A model generated the notes under the pieces. It was not told the DNA's origin. It was given only the letters and a program-made list of their open reading frames with translations, and did no database searches. From Candidatus Nomurabacteria bacterium (GTDB lineage: Bacteria; Patescibacteriota; Minisyncoccia; Phycocordibacterales; UBA9973), in the NCBI GenBank assembly GCA_023267275.1, contig JAHFNO010000016.1, forward strand, positions 1 through 34,713: a stretch of DNA of 34,713 nucleotides. The letters run 5' to 3'. The translations under genes were made by a program, and so were the position numbers. Below are positions 10,327-18,999 of this stretch, piece by piece (positions within the stretch are counted from its first letter, which is position 1; each line of letters begins with the position of its first letter).

Positions 10327-11646
10327 ATGGAAACAATAATACAAATGCCCGCAGGGACAAGGGCGAAAATACTAGCTCCCACAAAGGTAAAGTACTGCCT
10401 GTATGCGAGGAAAAGTACGGAGAGTGAAGAACGCCAAGTTCTCAGCATCGACAGTCAGATCAAGGAGATGCTCCAACTGGCAGAACGCGAGGGGCTCGAG
10501 ATAGTCGCCATGAAGCGCGAGTCGCACAGCGCGAAAGAGACAGGACAGCGTCCGATTTTTAACGAAATCGTCGAGGAACTTCGAGCTGGGAAATTCAACG
10601 GGATTCTGACATGGGCACCTGACCGAATTTCCCGTAACGCAGGTGATCTCGGGAAAATCGTCGATCTTATGGATTCCGGGAAGCTCGAAGAAATCCGAAC
10701 CTACAGCCAGAGCTTTCGGAACAACCCAAACGAGAAATTCCTGCTCATGATTTTAGGAAGCCAAGCAAAACTCGAGAACGACAACCGAGGCATCAACGTG
10801 AAGCGCGGACTGCGAACGAGAGTCGAGATGGGGCTGTGGCCGGGCATGGCACCGCTAGGGTATCGAAATCAGAAGCTCATGGACAAGAAGTGCCAGATCA
10901 TCATCGACCCAGACCGTGCACCGATCGTCAAAAAGATGTTTGAAAAGGTGGCGTATGACAAGTGGAGTGGCAGAAAGATACACCAATGGTTGCAATTCGA
11001 GCTAAACTTCAAGAGTGTCGGCAATAAGCATGTCGCTCTCGGAAATATTTTCCGCACATTACAGAATCCGATTTACTATGGCACATTCGAGTACCCAAAA
11101 AAGTCGGGCAACTGGTATCAAGGCAAGCATGAGCCGATCATCACAAAGGAACTCTTCGAGCAGACTCAAGCGCAACTAAAGCGCGACAACATCCAACGAC
11201 AGAGCCATGAGTTCATATTCACCAAGCTGATGAAATGCGGAAAGTGCGGATCGGGCATATCGGCGGAGGAGAAGTACAAGCAACTGAAAAATGGCACGGT
11301 CGCCAAGTATATCTACTATGGATGCGGACGAACGAAAGACAAGATGTGCAAAGGACAGTATCTTCGGGAAGAAGAACTGACTGAGCAGTTCCTGAAACTG
11401 ATGGACAGGATCGACCTCAATGAGACTGGGGTGCAGATGAAGTTTGAGGATGAACTGAAGCGACGCAATAAATTCAATCGGGGCGTGCTTGGGATACAAA
11501 ATCCGAATGTGAAGCATGAGGATGTGGATCTCAAGAGTTATGCGAAGTATATACTGCGAGACGGCACGAATGAGGAGAAGCGTGAGTTGATGGGGTGCTT
11601 TAAGTCGCAGATTACTTTGACGAAAGGGATGGTGGAGATAAATTGA
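10327..11646 (+). CDS. Large serine recombinase (resolvase/invertase N-terminus, zinc ribbon), 439 aa
   Basis: Residues 22-160 are a serine-recombinase catalytic domain with YCLYARKS (nucleophile Ser30), the SIDSQI helix, and APDRISRNAGDL carrying the conserved catalytic arginines. A recombinase DNA-binding domain follows (GLWPGMAPLGYRN to TFEYPKKSGNWYQGKHEPI), then a zinc ribbon starting KCGKCGSG with further cysteines at YYGCG and KMCKG. The C-terminal part is shorter than in phage integrases of 500 or more residues. The coding sequence looks more GC-rich than the cassette after it, which suggests a different origin. It is placed next to repeat copy 2, as integrases usually lie beside their att site. 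A second ATG at 10348 is an alternative start. Confidence 0.92.
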   Translation: METIIQMPAGTRAKILAPTKVKYCLYARKSTESEERQVLSIDSQIKEMLQLAEREGLEIVAMKRESHSAKETGQRPIFNEIVEELRAGKFNGILTWAPDRISRNAGDLGKIVDLMDSGKLEEIRTYSQSFRNNPNEKFLLMILGSQAKLENDNRGINVKRGLRTRVEMGLWPGMAPLGYRNQKLMDKKCQIIIDPDRAPIVKKMFEKVAYDKWSGRKIHQWLQFELNFKSVGNKHVALGNIFRTLQNPIYYGTFEYPKKSGNWYQGKHEPIITKELFEQTQAQLKRDNIQRQSHEFIFTKLMKCGKCGSGISAEEKYKQLKNGTVAKYIYYGCGRTKDKMCKGQYLREEELTEQFLKLMDRIDLNETGVQMKFEDELKRRNKFNRGVLGIQNPNVKHEDVDLKSYAKYILRDGTNEEKRELMGCFKSQITLTKGMVEIN

Positions 11647-11740
11647 AAAAAAGCTTATTTTGTGCGATAGTATGTTGAGCGAGTCAATTCTTCAGGCAAG
11701 ACTTCAGGATTTATGCCTTCAGACAAACGAGCTTGATTTT

Positions 11741-13936
11741 ATGAAGCAAAAAATAACAACTAAATCGTTCACAATCGATGCCCGTACTGTCATGAATTTG
11801 GGTAGAGATAGTATAAAAAATCCCACCACGGCTCTTTTAGAGTTGGTCAAAAATAGCTACGACGCTGATGCGACAGTGGTCGAAGTCGAAATTAATGAAC
11901 ATGGTATTCGCGTTGCAGATAACGGTTCGGGAATGACAGAGCAACAGCTCGAAAAAAACTGGCTACGCATTGGATTCTCAGACAAGCGATCACAGAAAGT
12001 TAGCAAGAAGTCCAGACGCAAGACGGGAGAAAAAGGCATCGGTCGCCTATCCACTGACCGTTTAGGTGAAAAACTTTCCCTTAACACAAAATCAGAAAAA
12101 GCCGAACCTTTCAACCTATCGGTTAACTGGGAGAAATTTAATGTCGACGGAAAAGAACTTTCTGATATTTCTGTTGATATTTCGAATATATCAGTTCTTA
12201 AAATTCCACAATCAAGTCGTGGCACAGGAACTGAAATTTTAATATCTGGATTACGCCAGAGTTGGCTCAAAACAGATATCGAACAGGTCTACAGTGAGAT
12301 CAGCGCGCTCGTCTCTCCTTTTTCTGCAGTAAAAGATTTTGAAATCCAATTTAATAATTATTTGGTACCGGAATTAAATGGATCAGTTAAGTCAGACTAT
12401 TATACAGCCGCAGAGGTTTCTGTTCAGGCAAGTTTTAATGGTAAATCTCAAAAAATTGAATACAAAATAATTGACCGAACATCTCCGAAAGTTTCTACGT
12501 CCAAGGGAGAGATCGAATGGAGCAAGCTCTCGCAAAGAGTGCTTAATAACGATATCGGTTTCAGTAATAAACTTACCTGTGGACCCGTGACAATTGACCT
12601 CTTGTATTTTGGCAGAACAAAAAACAATCCCTTGCTCGCAGAAAAAGGACTCGACATGAGTGGACTGAAAAATTTTCTTGATAAAAATCAGGGTATAAAA
12701 ATATATCGTGACCAAATTAGCGTAAAACCATATGGTTACAACAACGAACCTGCCGGTGACTGGCTCGGTCTTGCTCAACGAAAAGAACGAGATCCAGCAG
12801 GTCTATCGCGAGCAACTTACAAAGTCTCTTCATATCAGATAGTGGGTGCTGTGGCGATTGGTAGAGACACAAATCCTCAACTCAGAGACGGCTCTTCCCG
12901 AGAAGGCTTGGTTGAAAACGGAGCTTTCTATGACATCAGAGCTTTGACTTTAGCATGCGTTACTCTTTTGGAAAAACATAGACACGAAAAAACACTAAAA
13001 GAAAAAGCTGTCGTAAAAAATAGCAAACAAGGTCTTATCGAAGAAGTAGAAACATACAAACAGGACCTCGAAAGTCTACAGAAAAATCTAGAGGGACTGA
13101 AATCAAAATTCGAGACTAGCACCGCAACCGAGGACAAGAAGTCCCTCGAAGAAATTACTGCCGTAATTCAGAAAACAGTAGAAACAAAACGAAGGGTTGA
13201 AGAACTTCTCGATAATAATCGAGTACTGAGTGGTCTTGCGACTGTGGGTATCGCCTCTGCTGTATTTGGTCATGAGACACAGACGGCGGTGTCGCTTTTC
13301 AAGTCAGCTGTTTCTGCAGCGCAATCCGCACTGTCTCTAAAAACAGGACCGAACGTAGAAAAGGCTTTGACTCAGATGAAAACATCTCTCGGTTATGCAA
13401 AACAGGTTTCTTCATGGGGAGCTTTTGCCATGGCTCGAGTGAGAAAGGACAAAAGAACTCGCCAAAAAATCAATGTAAAAAATGCACTTGAAGGTGTTCT
13501 TAGTGAGGTTGAAGAGGCTTTTAATGCTATTAAAATTAACTTAATCAAAGAGCTTGAGGAAGTTAATGCAAAAGTATTTGTAATGGACATCGAATCGATA
13601 GTCTTGAACCTTTTGACGAATGCATATAGCGCTTGTGGTCAAACATCAAGAGAACGGAAAGTAAGAGTTGAATTGCGAGAAAAAAATAACGGCTCTATAA
13701 AAGGTTTTGAGATCATAGTTGCCGATACTGGATCGGGTGTCGACAAAACAGTTTCTGACATGATTTGGGAACCATTGTTCACCACAAAAAAGGATAAGAC
13801 GGGCAGAGAGGATGGCACCGGTCTTGGTTTGAGTATTGTTAAATCTACAGTCGAAGAATTGGGCGGTACAAAAGAGGTATCCAAGGATACAAAATTAAAA
13901 GGTGCCCGATTTCGAATTTGGCTTCCATCTAATTAA
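11741..13936 (+). CDS. MORC/Hsp90-type GHKL ATPase fused to a histidine kinase (731 aa)
   Basis: The N-terminal ATPase has a Bergerat fold like MORC and Hsp90: ALLELVKNSYDADA (E35, N39, D43), VADNGSGM (57-65) and TGEKGIGRLS (95-104). It is followed by a transducer-like region to about 400, a coiled coil (about 410-490), then a complete histidine-kinase core: H-box VFGHETQTAV (H511), N-box NLLTNAYSA (N627), G1 DTGSGV (662-667), F-box EPLFTTKK and G2 GTGLGLSIV (692-700). There are no membrane segments, so it is cytosolic. ATG 11741 is chosen because the conserved domain starts there; ATG 11672 would add 23 residues. The receiver gene follows after 6 bases. Two ATPase modules in one chain are unusual. 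MORC-type ATPases have been noted beside restriction-modification genes; sensing invading DNA is inference. Confidence 0.88.
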   Translation: MKQKITTKSFTIDARTVMNLGRDSIKNPTTALLELVKNSYDADATVVEVEINEHGIRVADNGSGMTEQQLEKNWLRIGFSDKRSQKVSKKSRRKTGEKGIGRLSTDRLGEKLSLNTKSEKAEPFNLSVNWEKFNVDGKELSDISVDISNISVLKIPQSSRGTGTEILISGLRQSWLKTDIEQVYSEISALVSPFSAVKDFEIQFNNYLVPELNGSVKSDYYTAAEVSVQASFNGKSQKIEYKIIDRTSPKVSTSKGEIEWSKLSQRVLNNDIGFSNKLTCGPVTIDLLYFGRTKNNPLLAEKGLDMSGLKNFLDKNQGIKIYRDQISVKPYGYNNEPAGDWLGLAQRKERDPAGLSRATYKVSSYQIVGAVAIGRDTNPQLRDGSSREGLVENGAFYDIRALTLACVTLLEKHRHEKTLKEKAVVKNSKQGLIEEVETYKQDLESLQKNLEGLKSKFETSTATEDKKSLEEITAVIQKTVETKRRVEELLDNNRVLSGLATVGIASAVFGHETQTAVSLFKSAVSAAQSALSLKTGPNVEKALTQMKTSLGYAKQVSSWGAFAMARVRKDKRTRQKINVKNALEGVLSEVEEAFNAIKINLIKELEEVNAKVFVMDIESIVLNLLTNAYSACGQTSRERKVRVELREKNNGSIKGFEIIVADTGSGVDKTVSDMIWEPLFTTKKDKTGREDGTGLGLSIVKSTVEELGGTKEVSKDTKLKGARFRIWLPSN

Positions 13937-13942
13937 TTATTT

Positions 13943-14614
13943 ATGGCAAGAACTAAGATAGCAGTAATTGATGATCGAGAGGACGCACGAAAACTAGTTG
14001 CGAGTGTTATTGATGATGCGATTGCAAATTTAGAGGTATCCGATGAATGGGCAGTGATTGATAGTGCGCCCCTGTCGACGATGGCAGGATACAGAGGCTG
14101 GGTCACCAAAGAAAAAATCGGGATACTTATTATCGACGAACGTCTTGGCGAGGTGCCTGACGCAACGGGAAAAACAGCAAACTATACTGGTAGCGATCTT
14201 GTGAGCGTTCTTAGGAAACAAAATAAGGACATGCCAATCTACGGAGTTACATCCTATCCCGACGACACTTCGTTGCAGGAACATTTTGCATTATTTAATG
14301 AGGTGGTAAAGAGAGACGACTTCACAGCAAAAGCCGCACAGTACGTTGATCGTTTTTTAAGATTATATAAAAATTTTCTTGATAGTAATGAGGAAGAACT
14401 TTCTGAACTTTCGAAAATCTCAAGAAAGATTGCTTTGGGAACCGCAACCGCAGCGGAAAAGAAGAAAGCTCGTGCCATCCAAGAAAGCTTGGAAATACCA
14501 CTTACCACTCTTGCGCTCGGTAGCCGAAAAGAGTGGTTGGATGAATATGAAAAAACCATTGCTAATTTTAAGAAAATGCAAAAGGATGCTAAAAAATTCC
14601 TCAAGAAAAAATGA
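13943..14614 (+). CDS. Receiver-domain protein with basic helical tail (223 aa)
   Basis: Residues 4-140 are a response-regulator receiver domain with all key residues: acidic pair D10/D11 (VIDDRED), phospho-acceptor D65 (ILIIDERLGE), T103 (YGVTSYPDD) and K123 (VVKRDDF). Residues 140-223 are helical and lysine-rich with no recognisable output domain. It starts 6 bases after the MORC-kinase gene, and its stop overlaps the HNH start as ATGA. I infer that the kinase phosphorylates D65 and that the tail transmits this to the nuclease or methyltransferase. The spacing between strands is longer than in typical receivers, so it is a divergent member. Confidence 0.85.
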   Translation: MARTKIAVIDDREDARKLVASVIDDAIANLEVSDEWAVIDSAPLSTMAGYRGWVTKEKIGILIIDERLGEVPDATGKTANYTGSDLVSVLRKQNKDMPIYGVTSYPDDTSLQEHFALFNEVVKRDDFTAKAAQYVDRFLRLYKNFLDSNEEELSELSKISRKIALGTATAAEKKKARAIQESLEIPLTTLALGSRKEWLDEYEKTIANFKKMQKDAKKFLKKK

Positions 14615-15264
14615 AATGGTCATTAATTCAAAAAACACCAAATCCGACAGTCGAGGCTTATGGCTATCATGATCCTCGTGTCAAAGAATTCTTAAGACAA
14701 GAAGGAGGACTTCGATGTGTTTATTGTGCTGTCAACGAGAACGCTCTCGGTGGGATTCAGGCATTTCATGTAGAGCACTATCGACCGAAATCAAAACCTG
14801 AATTCAGGGCATTAGAGAACGCACTGAGTAATCTTTTTTATGCCTGTCCGATTTGCAATCGTTTTAAATCCAATGATTGGCCTGCTGAACCTCACAGGCT
14901 ATTTAAAAATAGTTCCTATCCTGACCCATCGAGTGTAGACTACACAATTCTTTTTAATGTAAATAGTAAAAATGGTTCAGTTGTTGGAACTAAGGTTGCC
15001 TCAAAATACATCGTCGAAAGATTGTATTTTAATCGCCCCCAGCTCATTCTTGAGAGACGACAATATTTTCTTGATCAGGAACTCACAGAACTAAACAATG
15101 AGTACTCAACCCTCATTCCGTTGCTTGGTAAAAAGGGCGATGCGAGGTCGATAAAATATCTGACAAAACTATCTGAAATGAGTAATAAACTCAATCAGCT
15201 TTTGATAGATTTAAAGAAGATACCATCGTATGAACTTGGCGATGTTACCAAGAAGAAAAAATGA
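14611..15264 (+). CDS. HNH endonuclease (217 aa)
   Basis: A zinc-supported HNH site is visible: CVYC (C36, C39), then FHVEHYRPKSK (H53, H56), then NLFYACPICNRFKSN with CPIC (C79, C82) and the final Asn. This order (CxxC, H-x-E-H, N, CxxCN) matches HNH nucleases related to the TIGR02646 group found in defence and retron loci. The rest (about 95-217) is helical and unassigned, possibly a docking domain. ATG 14611 overlaps the receiver stop as ATGA and its own stop overlaps the methyltransferase start the same way, so amounts are probably balanced. It is the only nuclease in the cassette and so the probable effector. DNA as target is inferred. Confidence 0.87.
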   Translation: MKWSLIQKTPNPTVEAYGYHDPRVKEFLRQEGGLRCVYCAVNENALGGIQAFHVEHYRPKSKPEFRALENALSNLFYACPICNRFKSNDWPAEPHRLFKNSSYPDPSSVDYTILFNVNSKNGSVVGTKVASKYIVERLYFNRPQLILERRQYFLDQELTELNNEYSTLIPLLGKKGDARSIKYLTKLSEMSNKLNQLLIDLKKIPSYELGDVTKKKK

Positions 15265-16880
15265 TTAGCAAAAAAGAAAATGGCTCATATTACACACCTG
15301 ACATAATTGCTGATTTCATCATCAAGCGTGTTTTTGATAAGCAACACTACTCACTACCCAAAAAAATTAAAGTCCTAGAACCGAGCGTCGGCGATGGTGT
15401 TTTTGTTCGAGCACTTTTGGACAGCAAAAGTAGTTCTGCAAGAGAAATCTTCCTAGAAGTTGTTGAAAGAGAGGCTGAGGAACTAGCTAAAGTAGTTACA
15501 ATCGCCAAGACTCATAAGAGAAAGGGGTTGAGCTTCGCATCTCACGAACAAGACTATCTCGATTTTGAAAAGAATAATCAAGAAAAATACGATTTGATTG
15601 TTGGGAATCCTCCATATATTAAGAAGAATCATCTTACAAAAAAACAGCTCGAGCTGTGTGAAAAAATTCACAGTAAGGCAGGGCTTTCTGACAAGAAAAT
15701 TAAAAATATATGGACTGCATTTTTAATCAGTGCAGTTGATGCACTAAATGACAACGGCATTATTTGTTACGTGCTTCCGGCTGAGTTGCTTCAGGTCTCC
15801 TATGCTAAGGAACTCAGAGATTATTTGCGAAAGACATTACATAAAATTGAAATCTTTGCTTTTAATGAGTTGGTCTTTCAGGGTATTGAGCAGGACGTTA
15901 TTATCGTGATGGGCACGAAGTCCCCAACGACTAGCGGTGTTTCCTTTTTTCAAGCGAATAAACTCACTGATTTAAAAAAACCTGATTTGATTCCCGGGAA
16001 CACAAACATCGACAGGAATACGTTGGACAAATGGACTAATTATATTTTATCGCAAGAAGAACTCTCGTTTCTCGACAAGTTTAAGGACGGTCTGAAGGCG
16101 ATTAAAGACTATTCAAATGTGCAGGTCGGAATAGTTACTGCGGCTAATGATTTTTTCATCATCGACAAAGCGATTGCTGATAAATTCTCAATCGCTAAAT
16201 ACTGCAAGCCGATCCTGCAAAAAAGCTCTTTTGTTCCTGCTTCTTTGTCGATAACCCAGGATGATTTTACCGCTTTGAAAAAACGTAATAAGCCCGTACT
16301 TCTCTTGGCGCTCGAGGACAAGTCGATAGATTCCTTTCCAAAAGCTGTTAAGGCTTACATAAAAAAAGGCGAGGATGAAAAAATAAACAAAGGATACAAA
16401 TGTGTGATTCGGAACAATTGGTTTTATGTTTCTAGCATTTGGGCTTCAGAGGGTCTTTTTATTAAACGAAGCAATCTATTCCCGAGAGTGATTGTTAACG
16501 AGGCAAAGCTCAATGTGACTGACGCGTTTTACCGTATTTCCATGAAAGACGGGTACGAGATCAAAAGTCTGGCTTTCTCTTTCTTAAACACGCTCAGTTT
16601 GATCTTTACAGAGCTTGAGGGTAGATATTACGGGGGTGGGGTCTTAGAACTCATTCCAAGCGAATTTAAAGGCATACCGGTACCCTATGTTAAAGTCAAA
16701 ACCAGTGACTTCGCTAAATTGGATTCAATGCTTAGAGACAAAGAACCGATTGATTCAATTTTAAACTTCACAGATGGGGTCATTTTAAGAGATCACTTGA
16801 AATTGTCGAAAAAGGACATTTTGAAGATAACTACGATTTACAGAAAGTTGGTAGATCGGAGGCTCAAAATAGTCAAATAA
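15261..16880 (+). CDS. N6-adenine DNA methyltransferase (TaqI/Eco57I-like), 539 aa
   Basis: The N-terminal half has GSYYTPDIIADFI, motif I (VLEPSVGDGVFVRAL), motif IV (IVGNPPYIKK, catalytic NPPY) and YVLPAELLQVSYAKELR, as in TaqI/Eco57I-type adenine-N6 methyltransferases. Residues 270-539 look like a target-recognition region (QVGIVTAANDFFII, then VIRNNWFYVSS and YYGGGVLELIPSEFKGIPVP). No nuclease domain is fused and the length fits a stand-alone enzyme. It starts in an ATGA overlap with the HNH gene. Its last codons and stop lie inside a 52-bp perfect palindrome. In the cassette it would mark self DNA; the recognition site cannot be read from the sequence. Confidence 0.9.
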   Translation: MISKKENGSYYTPDIIADFIIKRVFDKQHYSLPKKIKVLEPSVGDGVFVRALLDSKSSSAREIFLEVVEREAEELAKVVTIAKTHKRKGLSFASHEQDYLDFEKNNQEKYDLIVGNPPYIKKNHLTKKQLELCEKIHSKAGLSDKKIKNIWTAFLISAVDALNDNGIICYVLPAELLQVSYAKELRDYLRKTLHKIEIFAFNELVFQGIEQDVIIVMGTKSPTTSGVSFFQANKLTDLKKPDLIPGNTNIDRNTLDKWTNYILSQEELSFLDKFKDGLKAIKDYSNVQVGIVTAANDFFIIDKAIADKFSIAKYCKPILQKSSFVPASLSITQDDFTALKKRNKPVLLLALEDKSIDSFPKAVKAYIKKGEDEKINKGYKCVIRNNWFYVSSIWASEGLFIKRSNLFPRVIVNEAKLNVTDAFYRISMKDGYEIKSLAFSFLNTLSLIFTELEGRYYGGGVLELIPSEFKGIPVPYVKVKTSDFAKLDSMLRDKEPIDSILNFTDGVILRDHLKLSKKDILKITTIYRKLVDRRLKIVK

Positions 16881-16917
16881 AAGACCATCCTAGGATGGTC
16901 TTTTATTTGACTATTTT
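16866..16917. terminator. 52-bp perfect palindrome overlapping the methyltransferase stop codon
   Basis: The 26 bases from 16866 are the exact reverse complement of the 26 bases to 16917, with no loop (centre CCT|AGG). The arms include AAAGACCATCC/GGATGGTCTTT flanked by A- and T-rich ends, so it can serve as a bidirectional intrinsic terminator. It contains the last five codons and the stop of the methyltransferase. Confidence 0.8.
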
Positions 16918-16953: not shown

Positions 16954-16980
16954 GCGTCTACCGATAAAAAGTACTGCTCG

Positions 16981-17067
16981 CGGAGAGGGAGGGATTCGAA
17001 CCCTCGGATCCAATTAAGGATCGACAGTTTAGTAAACTGTTCGTTTCGACCGCTCACGCACCTCTCC
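16981..17067 (-). tRNA. tRNA-Ser with unusual anticodon ACT
   Basis: A full class II cloverleaf is present: acceptor GGAGAGG/CCTCTCC, D arm CGT…ACG, anticodon stem ACAGT/ACTGT with loop TTACTAA, long variable arm ATCC/GGAT, and T stem GAGGG/CCCTC around TTCGAAT; discriminator G. The anticodon reads ACT where tRNA-Ser for AGY codons normally has GCT. The loop differs from the neighbouring tRNA-Ser(GCT) loop TTGCTAA by one base. No CCA is encoded. Confidence 0.88.
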
Positions 17068-17137
17068 ACGGGAAAACGAATCTAATATAGCACAAAATGA
17101 AAAATAATAAATAATATGCTAAAGTACGGGGGTTCAG

Positions 17138-17223
17138 GAGACGTGTCTGAGCGGTCTAAGGTACATCTTTGCTAAAGATGCAGGGTTTAATCGCCCTCGC
17201 GAGTTCGAATCTCGCCGTCTCCG
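17138..17223 (+). tRNA. tRNA-Ser (anticodon GCT)
   Basis: Acceptor GGAGACG/CGTCTCC, anticodon stem CATCT/AGATG with loop TTGCTAA (anticodon GCT, reads AGY), a long variable arm, and T stem GCGAG/CTCGC around TTCGAAT; discriminator G. It lies divergent to tRNA-Ser(ACT), 70 bp away, and the NadM-like gene starts 4 bases after its 3' end. Confidence 0.95.
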
Positions 17224-17227
17224 CAGA

Positions 17228-17806
17228 ATGCAGAAAATTCGTATCGCAGTTGTGCATGGTCGGTATCAACCACCACATAACGGACATATTCGCTACATAC
17301 TTACGGCATTTGAAAAAGCCGAGCATCTTCTTATTGGTGTCTGTACGCCAGAGATTTGTAGCGATGAAGAAGCGGAGCGCACGGGGTACCCGTGCGCTCC
17401 ACACTTGAATCCTTTTTCCTATGAAGACCGCAAAACAATGATTGGTCTCGCACTCACCGAACAAGGTATATCTCCGAGTCGCTATACCATCATCCCCTTC
17501 CCGAGTGATTACAAAAATATTGAAACACTTGTTCCGCGCGATGCTGTATTTTTTATGAGCGTCACCAGCGAACATGACGCAAAGAAAATTGAGTATCTAC
17601 AACAAAAAGGATTTGCTGTAGAAACAATTTTTTCACAACAACATGAAACACCGCGCGAAAAGGGTGGCTATGTACGTACCAGTGTGCGAGCCGGTACAAA
17701 CGACTGGGAAACGATGGTTCCTGAATCGGTACAGAAGTATATAAAGGAAAATGATTTAGTGTTAAATAGGAACCACCCCGTTTTGATTACAAAACACCCC
17801 TCCTGA
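17228..17806 (+). CDS. NadM-like nicotinamide-nucleotide adenylyltransferase (192 aa)
   Basis: The N-terminus IRIAVVHGRYQPPHNGHIRYI has the G-R-(F/Y)-Q-P-x-H-x-G-H signature of the nucleotidyltransferase superfamily as found in NadM-type NMN adenylyltransferases (HxGH binds ATP phosphates). A later GGYVRTSVRAGTNDWETMVP fits the family's second substrate-loop region (R-(T/S)-S-x-(I/V)-R), and PESVQKYIKE closes the fold. NadM joins NMN and ATP to give NAD. ATG 17228 lies 4 bases after tRNA-Ser(GCT), so the gene is probably read from the tRNA promoter. Its stop lies inside a C/G-rich palindrome. The 12-20 C-terminal residues look like read-through into that repeat. The isochorismatase-fold hydrolase far upstream could also belong to NAD metabolism. 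Confidence 0.75.
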   Translation: MQKIRIAVVHGRYQPPHNGHIRYILTAFEKAEHLLIGVCTPEICSDEEAERTGYPCAPHLNPFSYEDRKTMIGLALTEQGISPSRYTIIPFPSDYKNIETLVPRDAVFFMSVTSEHDAKKIEYLQQKGFAVETIFSQQHETPREKGGYVRTSVRAGTNDWETMVPESVQKYIKENDLVLNRNHPVLITKHPS

Positions 17807-17865: not shown

Positions 17866-18618
17866 ATGAACCCAGAAATCACACGCCTCGAGGAAGAAAA
17901 CACAAAATTAAAAGAACAAAACGCCATGAAAGGCGACCTTATTTCCATCACCGCTCACCAACTCCGCACAAGTCTTTCTGCAATGAAATGGATTTTAAAA
18001 ATGTTTCTTGATGGCGACTTCGGTACGCTCACTAGCGAACAACAAAATTTTATACAAAAAGCATTTGATTCAGACGAACGCATGATCCGTCTCGTAAATG
18101 AAATGCTTTCTATCAACCACTCAGAAGAAACACTTAACACCGTGCATCCTATTCCTACTGACATTGTAAAATTGCTCGACGAAGTATATTTTGATTTTAC
18201 TGGCGAATCGTTTAAAAAAGGTATCGAACTTATTTTCCTCAAACCAACATCCCCTATCGCGTCAGTAACGGTTGATCCAGAGAAAATGCGAGTGGTATTC
18301 CAAAACCTTATTGAAAACGCAATCAAATATTCAAACAAAGGCGGACGAGTATTTATCAACGCTACAGAAAAAGAAGACTCAATCGAAATTTCTGTGCGTG
18401 ATACTGGTATCGGCATCGCAAACGAGGACAAAGAAAATATATTTGGAAAATTCTTCCGCACCGAAAATGCAAAGAAACAAGATTCTATTGGTTCAGGACT
18501 TGGGCTCTTTACGACAAAGAAAATAGTCGAAACAAGTCATGGTAAAATCTGGTTTGAAAGCACGGTCGGCGAGGGCACCACTTTCTATGTGGAGCTTCCA
18601 AAAATTACCAACGCATAG
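17866..18618 (+). CDS. Soluble sensor histidine kinase (250 aa)
   Basis: After a short coiled coil (ITRLEEENTKLKEQNA, residues 5-20) comes the H-box ISITAHQLRTSLSAMKW with phospho-acceptor H31, then the N-box NLIENAIKYS, G1 DTGIGI, F-box FGKFF and G2 GSGLGLFTTKKI. This is a complete but minimal HisKA-HATPase kinase without sensor or membrane domain. The ITAHQLR(T/P)SLSA(M/I)KW form is typical of Parcubacteria kinases. The response regulator follows 12 bases later and is its likely partner. The gene seems leaderless. With no input domain, another protein may provide the signal. Confidence 0.9.
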   Translation: MNPEITRLEEENTKLKEQNAMKGDLISITAHQLRTSLSAMKWILKMFLDGDFGTLTSEQQNFIQKAFDSDERMIRLVNEMLSINHSEETLNTVHPIPTDIVKLLDEVYFDFTGESFKKGIELIFLKPTSPIASVTVDPEKMRVVFQNLIENAIKYSNKGGRVFINATEKEDSIEISVRDTGIGIANEDKENIFGKFFRTENAKKQDSIGSGLGLFTTKKIVETSHGKIWFESTVGEGTTFYVELPKITNA

Positions 18619-18624
18619 TACAAT
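18619..18624 (+). promoter_or_regulatory. -10 box TACAAT of the response regulator gene (leaderless spacing)
   Basis: TACAAT begins right after the kinase stop codon and ends 6 bases before the ATG at 18631, the same spacing as at the kinase, recG and metallo-beta-lactamase genes. It may give the regulator its own transcript. Confidence 0.4.
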
Positions 18625-18630
18625 CCACGT

Positions 18631-18999
18631 ATGAATAAAAAGATACTCATAGTTGAAGACGACTCATTCCTCCAAGGCCTTGCTTCTACAAAACTCGAGA
18701 AGGAAGGTTTTACAGTGACAGCTGCTTCGAGCGGAGACGACGCACTCAAATTGCTTAAGACAGATGTGCCCGATTGTATTTTGCTCGACCTCATTCTCCC
18801 TGGTATGGATGGATTTGAAGTATTGCGCAATGTTCGAGAAGCTGGAGCAACACGTGCAGTCCCAGTAATCGTATTTTCAAACCTATCAGAAGATACCGAT
18901 ATCAAACATGCAAAAGACCTTGGTGCTACAGACTATATGATCAAGTCAAACTTCACCCTCGATGAACTCGCCGATCGAATCAAAGAATTGTTGAAATAG
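18631..18999 (+). CDS. Single-domain response regulator (122 aa)
   Basis: This is a canonical CheY-like receiver: E9/D10/D11 (VEDDSF), phospho-acceptor D53 (ILLDLILPGMDGFEVL), the switch residue in VIVFSNL and the lysine of DYMIKSNF. It lacks an output domain, so it signals by protein contact. It lies 12 bases after the soluble kinase and is almost certainly its partner. The D-Y-(M/I)-x-K-S motif is usual in CPR stand-alone regulators. The target is not evident. Confidence 0.92.
   Translation: MNKKILIVEDDSFLQGLASTKLEKEGFTVTAASSGDDALKLLKTDVPDCILLDLILPGMDGFEVLRNVREAGATRAVPVIVFSNLSEDTDIKHAKDLGATDYMIKSNFTLDELADRIKELLK

Follow-up and report, generated by a model that had tools for sequence, protein, structure and literature searches.

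A four-gene operon in a Candidatus Nomurabacteria contig (34,713 nucleotides were analysed, hereafter the window) is probably a mobile defence system of the restriction type, its nuclease being gated by a phosphorelay. All four genes lie on the forward strand, in the order kinase, receiver protein, HNH nuclease and methyltransferase, and are tightly coupled: the receiver gene starts 7 bases past the kinase stop, and the HNH and methyltransferase genes each overlap the preceding stop by ATGA. A promoter scan gave a signal no better than in shuffled sequence. The operon consists of:

11741 to 13936, forward strand: dual-GHKL sensor histidine kinase, 731 aa, first gene in the operon (PF13589 and PF02518; model pLDDT 88)
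13943 to 14614, forward strand: response-regulator-like protein, 223 aa, with a receiver at residues 1-129 and a helical output domain at 130-223 (model with receiver fold; D10, D11, D65 and T103 conserved)
14135 to 14137, forward strand: codon of the receiver phospho-acceptor D65 (Asp in 75/75 relatives)
14611 to 15264, forward strand: HNH nuclease of the PtuB/TIGR02646 type, 217 aa (PF01844, 5e-5; PADLOC PtuB, 1.3e-19; PtuB in the PDB, 5e-8)
15261 to 16880, forward strand: Eco57I/BseCI-type adenine DNA methyltransferase, 539 aa (PADLOC MTase_II, 2.5e-153; M.BseCI, 3e-15; NPPY at 116-119)
16867 to 16914, no strand assigned: long, perfect inverted repeat that closes the operon, a probable terminator (read from the sequence)

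In the proposed mechanism, a soluble dimeric kinase would bear an ATP-driven MORC-like clamp in the usual sensor position, and the clamp would close on a signal, most likely invading DNA without the methyltransferase's mark. The change would be relayed to the kinase core via the S5 domain and the long helices. The core would autophosphorylate H511 and pass the phosphate to receiver D65; the receiver's helical output domain would then directly activate the PtuB-like HNH nuclease, which would cut DNA, with defence against phages as the presumed outcome. Host DNA would be protected by the adenine methyltransferase, which would mark it as self.

The kinase frame is open from TTG at 11660, and ATG at 11741 agrees with where the proteins of relatives begin; the frame closes with a stop at 13936. 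Within it were assigned:

11825 to 12205, forward strand: N-terminal MORC/MutL/Hsp90-type GHKL ATPase domain, residues 29-155
12338 to 12919, forward strand: S5/transducer-like domain, approximately residues 200-393 (from the Morc3 ATPase-CW match of the model; R387 invariant)
12920 to 13435, forward strand: long helices and DHp-like hairpin, residues 394-565 (model secondary structure and HK853 match)
13271 to 13273, forward strand: codon of the phospho-acceptor H511, followed by E512
13463 to 13933, forward strand: C-terminal kinase catalytic (CA) domain (N, G1 and G2 boxes conserved)

A first-pass annotation of the letters had claimed two intact Bergerat-fold sites in this protein, and all the motifs it quoted were found: VADNGSGM (58-65) and TGEKGIGRLS (95-104) in the N-terminal ATPase, and NLLTNA (623-628), DTGSG (662-666) and GTGLGLS (692-698) near the C-terminus. 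PF13589 (HATPase_c_3) matched residues 29-155 with E = 1.2e-23 and PF02518 (HATPase_c) matched residues 616-730 with E = 3.8e-26, both well above the Pfam cut-offs; on these scores, a chance explanation is far exceeded. Both domains were present in 45/45 relatives, and the H, N, G1 and G2 boxes of a two-component kinase are all there, with H511 in FGHE.

The kinase was modelled as a monomer with AlphaFold2 from an alignment of 68 relatives (mean pLDDT 88). The best match of residues 7-418 of the model was the Morc3 ATPase cassette (Z 23.6 over 304 aligned residues), with Hsp90, MORC4 and MutL next, and residues 506-731 matched the complete kinase core of HK853 (Z ~21). From sequence alone, a profile of the N-terminal part searched against the PDB found MORC3 (1e-8), MutL, MORC2 and Hsp90, in agreement with the annotated MORC-like GHKL module. 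H511, which had been expected not to vary among homologues, is His in 165/171 relatives (the other six being four gaps, one N and one A) and in 68/68 of a curated set, in which R387 of the S5/transducer-like domain is likewise found in 68/68. Conservation counts at Glu34, Asn38 and Asp41 are biased because the search was seeded with the stretch containing them; those at R92, G96, K98, H511 and N623 are unbiased. The earlier picture of two different kinds of GHKL module, a conserved His between them and an ATPase standing where kinases normally carry a sensor thus holds, whereas its proposal of DNA or a phage protein as the signal, and of an ATPase that clamps DNA, is conjecture; it had also overlooked the receiver, HNH and methyltransferase partners and a precedent from 2021.

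In MORC, MutL and Hsp90, ATP binding closes the modules into a dimeric clamp. By analogy, closing of the clamp could determine the state of the kinase, since the clamp is joined through the S5-like domain and helices to a kinase that is expected to dimerise. It is unlikely that the dual-GHKL protein is instead an energy or nucleotide sensor, holding the nuclease off until the nucleotide pool changes: two ATP sites within one soluble protein would fit such a role, but MORC/MutL/Hsp90 modules bind substrates besides ATP, and a methyltransferase as partner argues for the sensing of DNA status. NTP levels have been speculated to be the signal for a related family (PMC8011034), which favours the nucleotide sensor.

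The receiver match of the 223-aa protein in Pfam was weak (0.0056), and its model (a monomer, pLDDT 92.6) shows a receiver fold followed by helices. Among 75 relatives, the acidic pair D10 and D11, the phospho-acceptor D65 and T103 are conserved, and K or R mostly occupies the Lys position; in the close group the canonical Lys is often Arg or shifted, a point against the proposed mechanism. The protein has the acidic pair, phospho-Asp, Thr/Ser and Lys positions by which two-component receivers are recognised. The family search gave no DNA-binding family match for the short helical output domain, and no receiver-nuclease fusion was detected with the profiles built for the partners.

Residues H56, N74, N83 and K86 of the HNH nuclease are conserved (62/62). 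No target-recognition domain was recognisable in this protein, which counts against the proposed mechanism. The NPPY motif of the methyltransferase is intact, and the operon holds what a Type II restriction-modification (R-M) system does, a DNA methyltransferase and a separate endonuclease gene.

Related loci were sampled as 80 genome, 80 viral and 8 plasmid loci, which are the best-scoring ones and no census; gene calls at these loci were simple longest-ORF choices, from which the partner profiles were built. Scanning viral contigs with the single sequence P0001 gave nothing, whereas alignment-based scans worked. In 160/171 non-paralogue loci, a same-strand gene starts beside the kinase stop, mostly encoding the receiver protein. 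The window's clade (70 rows, support 97) spans many phyla, plasmids and prophages. A simple label assigned an HNH gene to 66 of these rows, another (L031) has HNH plus an MBL match, and the three rows without HNH stop at the contig end; HNH is thus kept in 67/67 assessable members, a strict co-occurrence. The methyltransferase, upstream or downstream, is present in 64/68 HNH loci, and three of the four loci without it (L016, L018 and L112) stop at the contig end. In a separate sister clade of 15 (L009, L012, L065, L088, L123 and others), an MBL-fold protein replaces HNH. On deeper branches the kinase is accompanied by different partners, among them C5 methyltransferases, Vsr and HNH_2, as in the 2021 publication.

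Across 59 complete systems, distance correlations were 0.79 for kinase and HNH, 0.68 for kinase and receiver, 0.59 for receiver and HNH and 0.29-0.44 for pairs with the methyltransferase, all values being inflated by relatedness of the sequences. The ranking of the first three above those with the methyltransferase points to a tight unit of kinase, receiver and nuclease. The kinase-HNH value, as the highest, would also suit a MutL-like arrangement, in which the GHKL protein loads on DNA and activates HNH directly while the kinase part tunes the ATPase state and phosphotransfer is inessential; MutL activates a nuclease through contact. We give this arrangement a small chance of being right, as H511 and receiver D65 are nearly invariant, which is difficult to explain without phosphotransfer. 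For VcSduA, the GHKL module is the suggested driver of the nuclease (PMC12137116), a point in favour of direct activation.

Control of the nuclease through the receiver, the reading preferred here, is consistent with how the receiver protein varies. Profiles of the receiver domain detected their counterparts across the HNH and MBL systems (10/10 and 44/60); profiles of the C-terminal parts detected none (0/10 and 0/60). The output domain is helical with HNH, in the model of the window protein, whereas in MBL systems its sequence is different and probably rich in strands, so that it is matched to the nuclease type. Such a switch would be expected if the receiver controls the nuclease directly; as it coincides with one tree split, it is a single event, and shared descent could explain it. 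The two-component pair might alternatively regulate expression of the R-M genes, transcriptionally or post-transcriptionally, rather than the nuclease protein. Expression control is the usual role of most response regulators and R-M systems often have controller genes, but we consider it improbable here: the output domain, besides being short, helical and free of DNA-binding family matches, changes with nuclease type, and all genes lie in one coupled operon.

Three features flank the operon or the cassette's insertion site:

10327 to 11646, forward strand: serine recombinase adjoining the operon, a likely mobility gene (PF00239, PF07508 and PF13408)
16980 to 17224, no strand assigned: pair of tRNA-Ser genes at which the insertion ends on its right side (in G366, this pair also adjoins a serine recombinase)
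17228 to 17806: NMN-adenylyltransferase-like gene right of the tRNAs, 192 aa

In a family relative (G366; locus L184), a serine recombinase lies at the same tRNA-Ser pair without the four operon genes. Since the pair and the recombinase occur there without the cassette, their position bounding it in the window suggests an integration hotspot. A search beside the tRNA-Ser genes gave no direct repeat of sufficient length for an att site. Kinase relatives within the phylum were found in 3/380 sampled genomes at 1e-20, the window's own genome counted, and the closest relatives of the kinase are in TM6, Bacteroidota, Planctomycetes and Elusimicrobia. Horizontal acquisition of the four-gene operon is the simplest reading of the recombinase and tRNA flanks, the relative without the cassette, the rarity in the phylum and the nearest relatives in other phyla. 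Elsewhere, some cassettes lie in prophages, adjoining integrase, terminase or capsid genes, and others on plasmids. Two gammaproteobacterial-type cassettes had no close DNA relative in 5,426 complete E. coli genomes.

Several observations were made at individual loci. An HNH-type cassette at L099 (6708-11547) is inside a prophage, beside terminase and capsid genes, and the kinase of a Klebsiella plasmid relative (L006, 5995-8265) is annotated as three fragments and probably frameshifted. The NMN-adenylyltransferase-like gene has ~340-350 aa in genus relatives (L182, 9729-10781; L183, 8275-9300), with an extra N-terminal domain that was not found elsewhere in the window. At 17866-18999, the window has a small HisKA and HATPase_c kinase and a CheY-like receiver beside RecG; these are syntenic in relatives and unrelated to the cassette. 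Contig 31 of the same genome (G000; L002, 424-2079) encodes one more MORC-like ATPase, in which HATPase_c_3 is joined to a Ymh domain of the HEPN type (PMC3710099); it is likely a defence protein.

Two-component logic in phage defence is known from Detocs, whose sensor and effector domains probably differ from those of the window system. The HNH nuclease is of the same family as the PtuB effector of Septu and retron Ec78, but the operon has neither a retron nor a PtuA-type ATPase, a receiver gene taking that place; a PtuA-model match of the HNH protein falls on an HNH stretch. PorX of PorXY likewise has a receiver and helical segment (profile match over 189 residues) but carries a PglZ phosphodiesterase, whereas the enzyme here is a separate protein of HNH type. 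In VcSduA (GHKL-Shedu), mutants showed that the GHKL ATPase and the nuclease are both required for anti-phage defence (PMC12137116); there, the nuclease is fused directly to the GHKL ATPase, without kinase or receiver.

MORC and paraMORC ATPases were found in R-M operons by Iyer et al. (2008; PMC2292703). The window protein shares with them an N-terminal GHKL and S5-like domain, R-M neighbours and HNH partners, and so has the paraMORC arrangement within an R-M operon, but it differs by a complete C-terminal histidine kinase; PMC2292703 mentions no receiver for those families. Membership in the MORC family proper was rejected: against the S5-domain motif GhXhhpXXRhl (PMC2292703), the window's GIKIYRDQISV has I at position 9 instead of R, the consensus R of the family lying one position later.

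The sole direct precedent in the literature searched (subscription papers and preprints lying outside its scope) is that of Bellieny-Rabelo et al. (2021; PMC8011034), who described HATPase_c_3, HEF_HK and HATPase_c with a Response_reg_2 partner beside R-M genes and proposed the N-terminal ATPase as sensor. The window kinase is also a soluble HATPase_c_3, DHp and HATPase_c protein with an adjoining receiver-like gene and R-M neighbours; it differs in having an Eco57I-type adenine methyltransferase and PtuB-like HNH, the published context being a C5 methyltransferase with Vsr/HNH_2. Despite the identical architecture, membership in the HEF_HK/Response_reg_2 Pfams was rejected: neither the window kinase nor the receiver matched PF19191 or PF19192 at E 0.1, and among relatives these gave 2/45 and 1/44 matches, near or below cut-off, with HEF_HK matches on deep branches only. 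While the dual-GHKL architecture was thus already published in 2021, the window's branch and its fixed nuclease partner seem undescribed; the system is ranked apart from the 2021 family because of the absent Pfam matches, the adenine methyltransferase with PtuB-type HNH, and a four-gene unit kept over many phyla. Although widespread, it has no name in the annotation libraries searched.

More tentatively, and with the odds somewhat against it, the system may represent phosphorylation-licensed restriction, in which a MORC-type clamp kinase checks DNA for absent self-methylation, a His-Asp relay alone frees the nuclease, and nucleases (HNH, MBL fold, others) are interchangeable via the receiver output domain. 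If true, this would connect the His-Asp relay with the restriction of foreign DNA, two textbook machines that seldom occur side by side. An ATP-driven clamp of the MORC/MutL type would gain a readable output, phosphate on a receiver, and what prokaryotic MORC-like ATPases sense would become directly testable.
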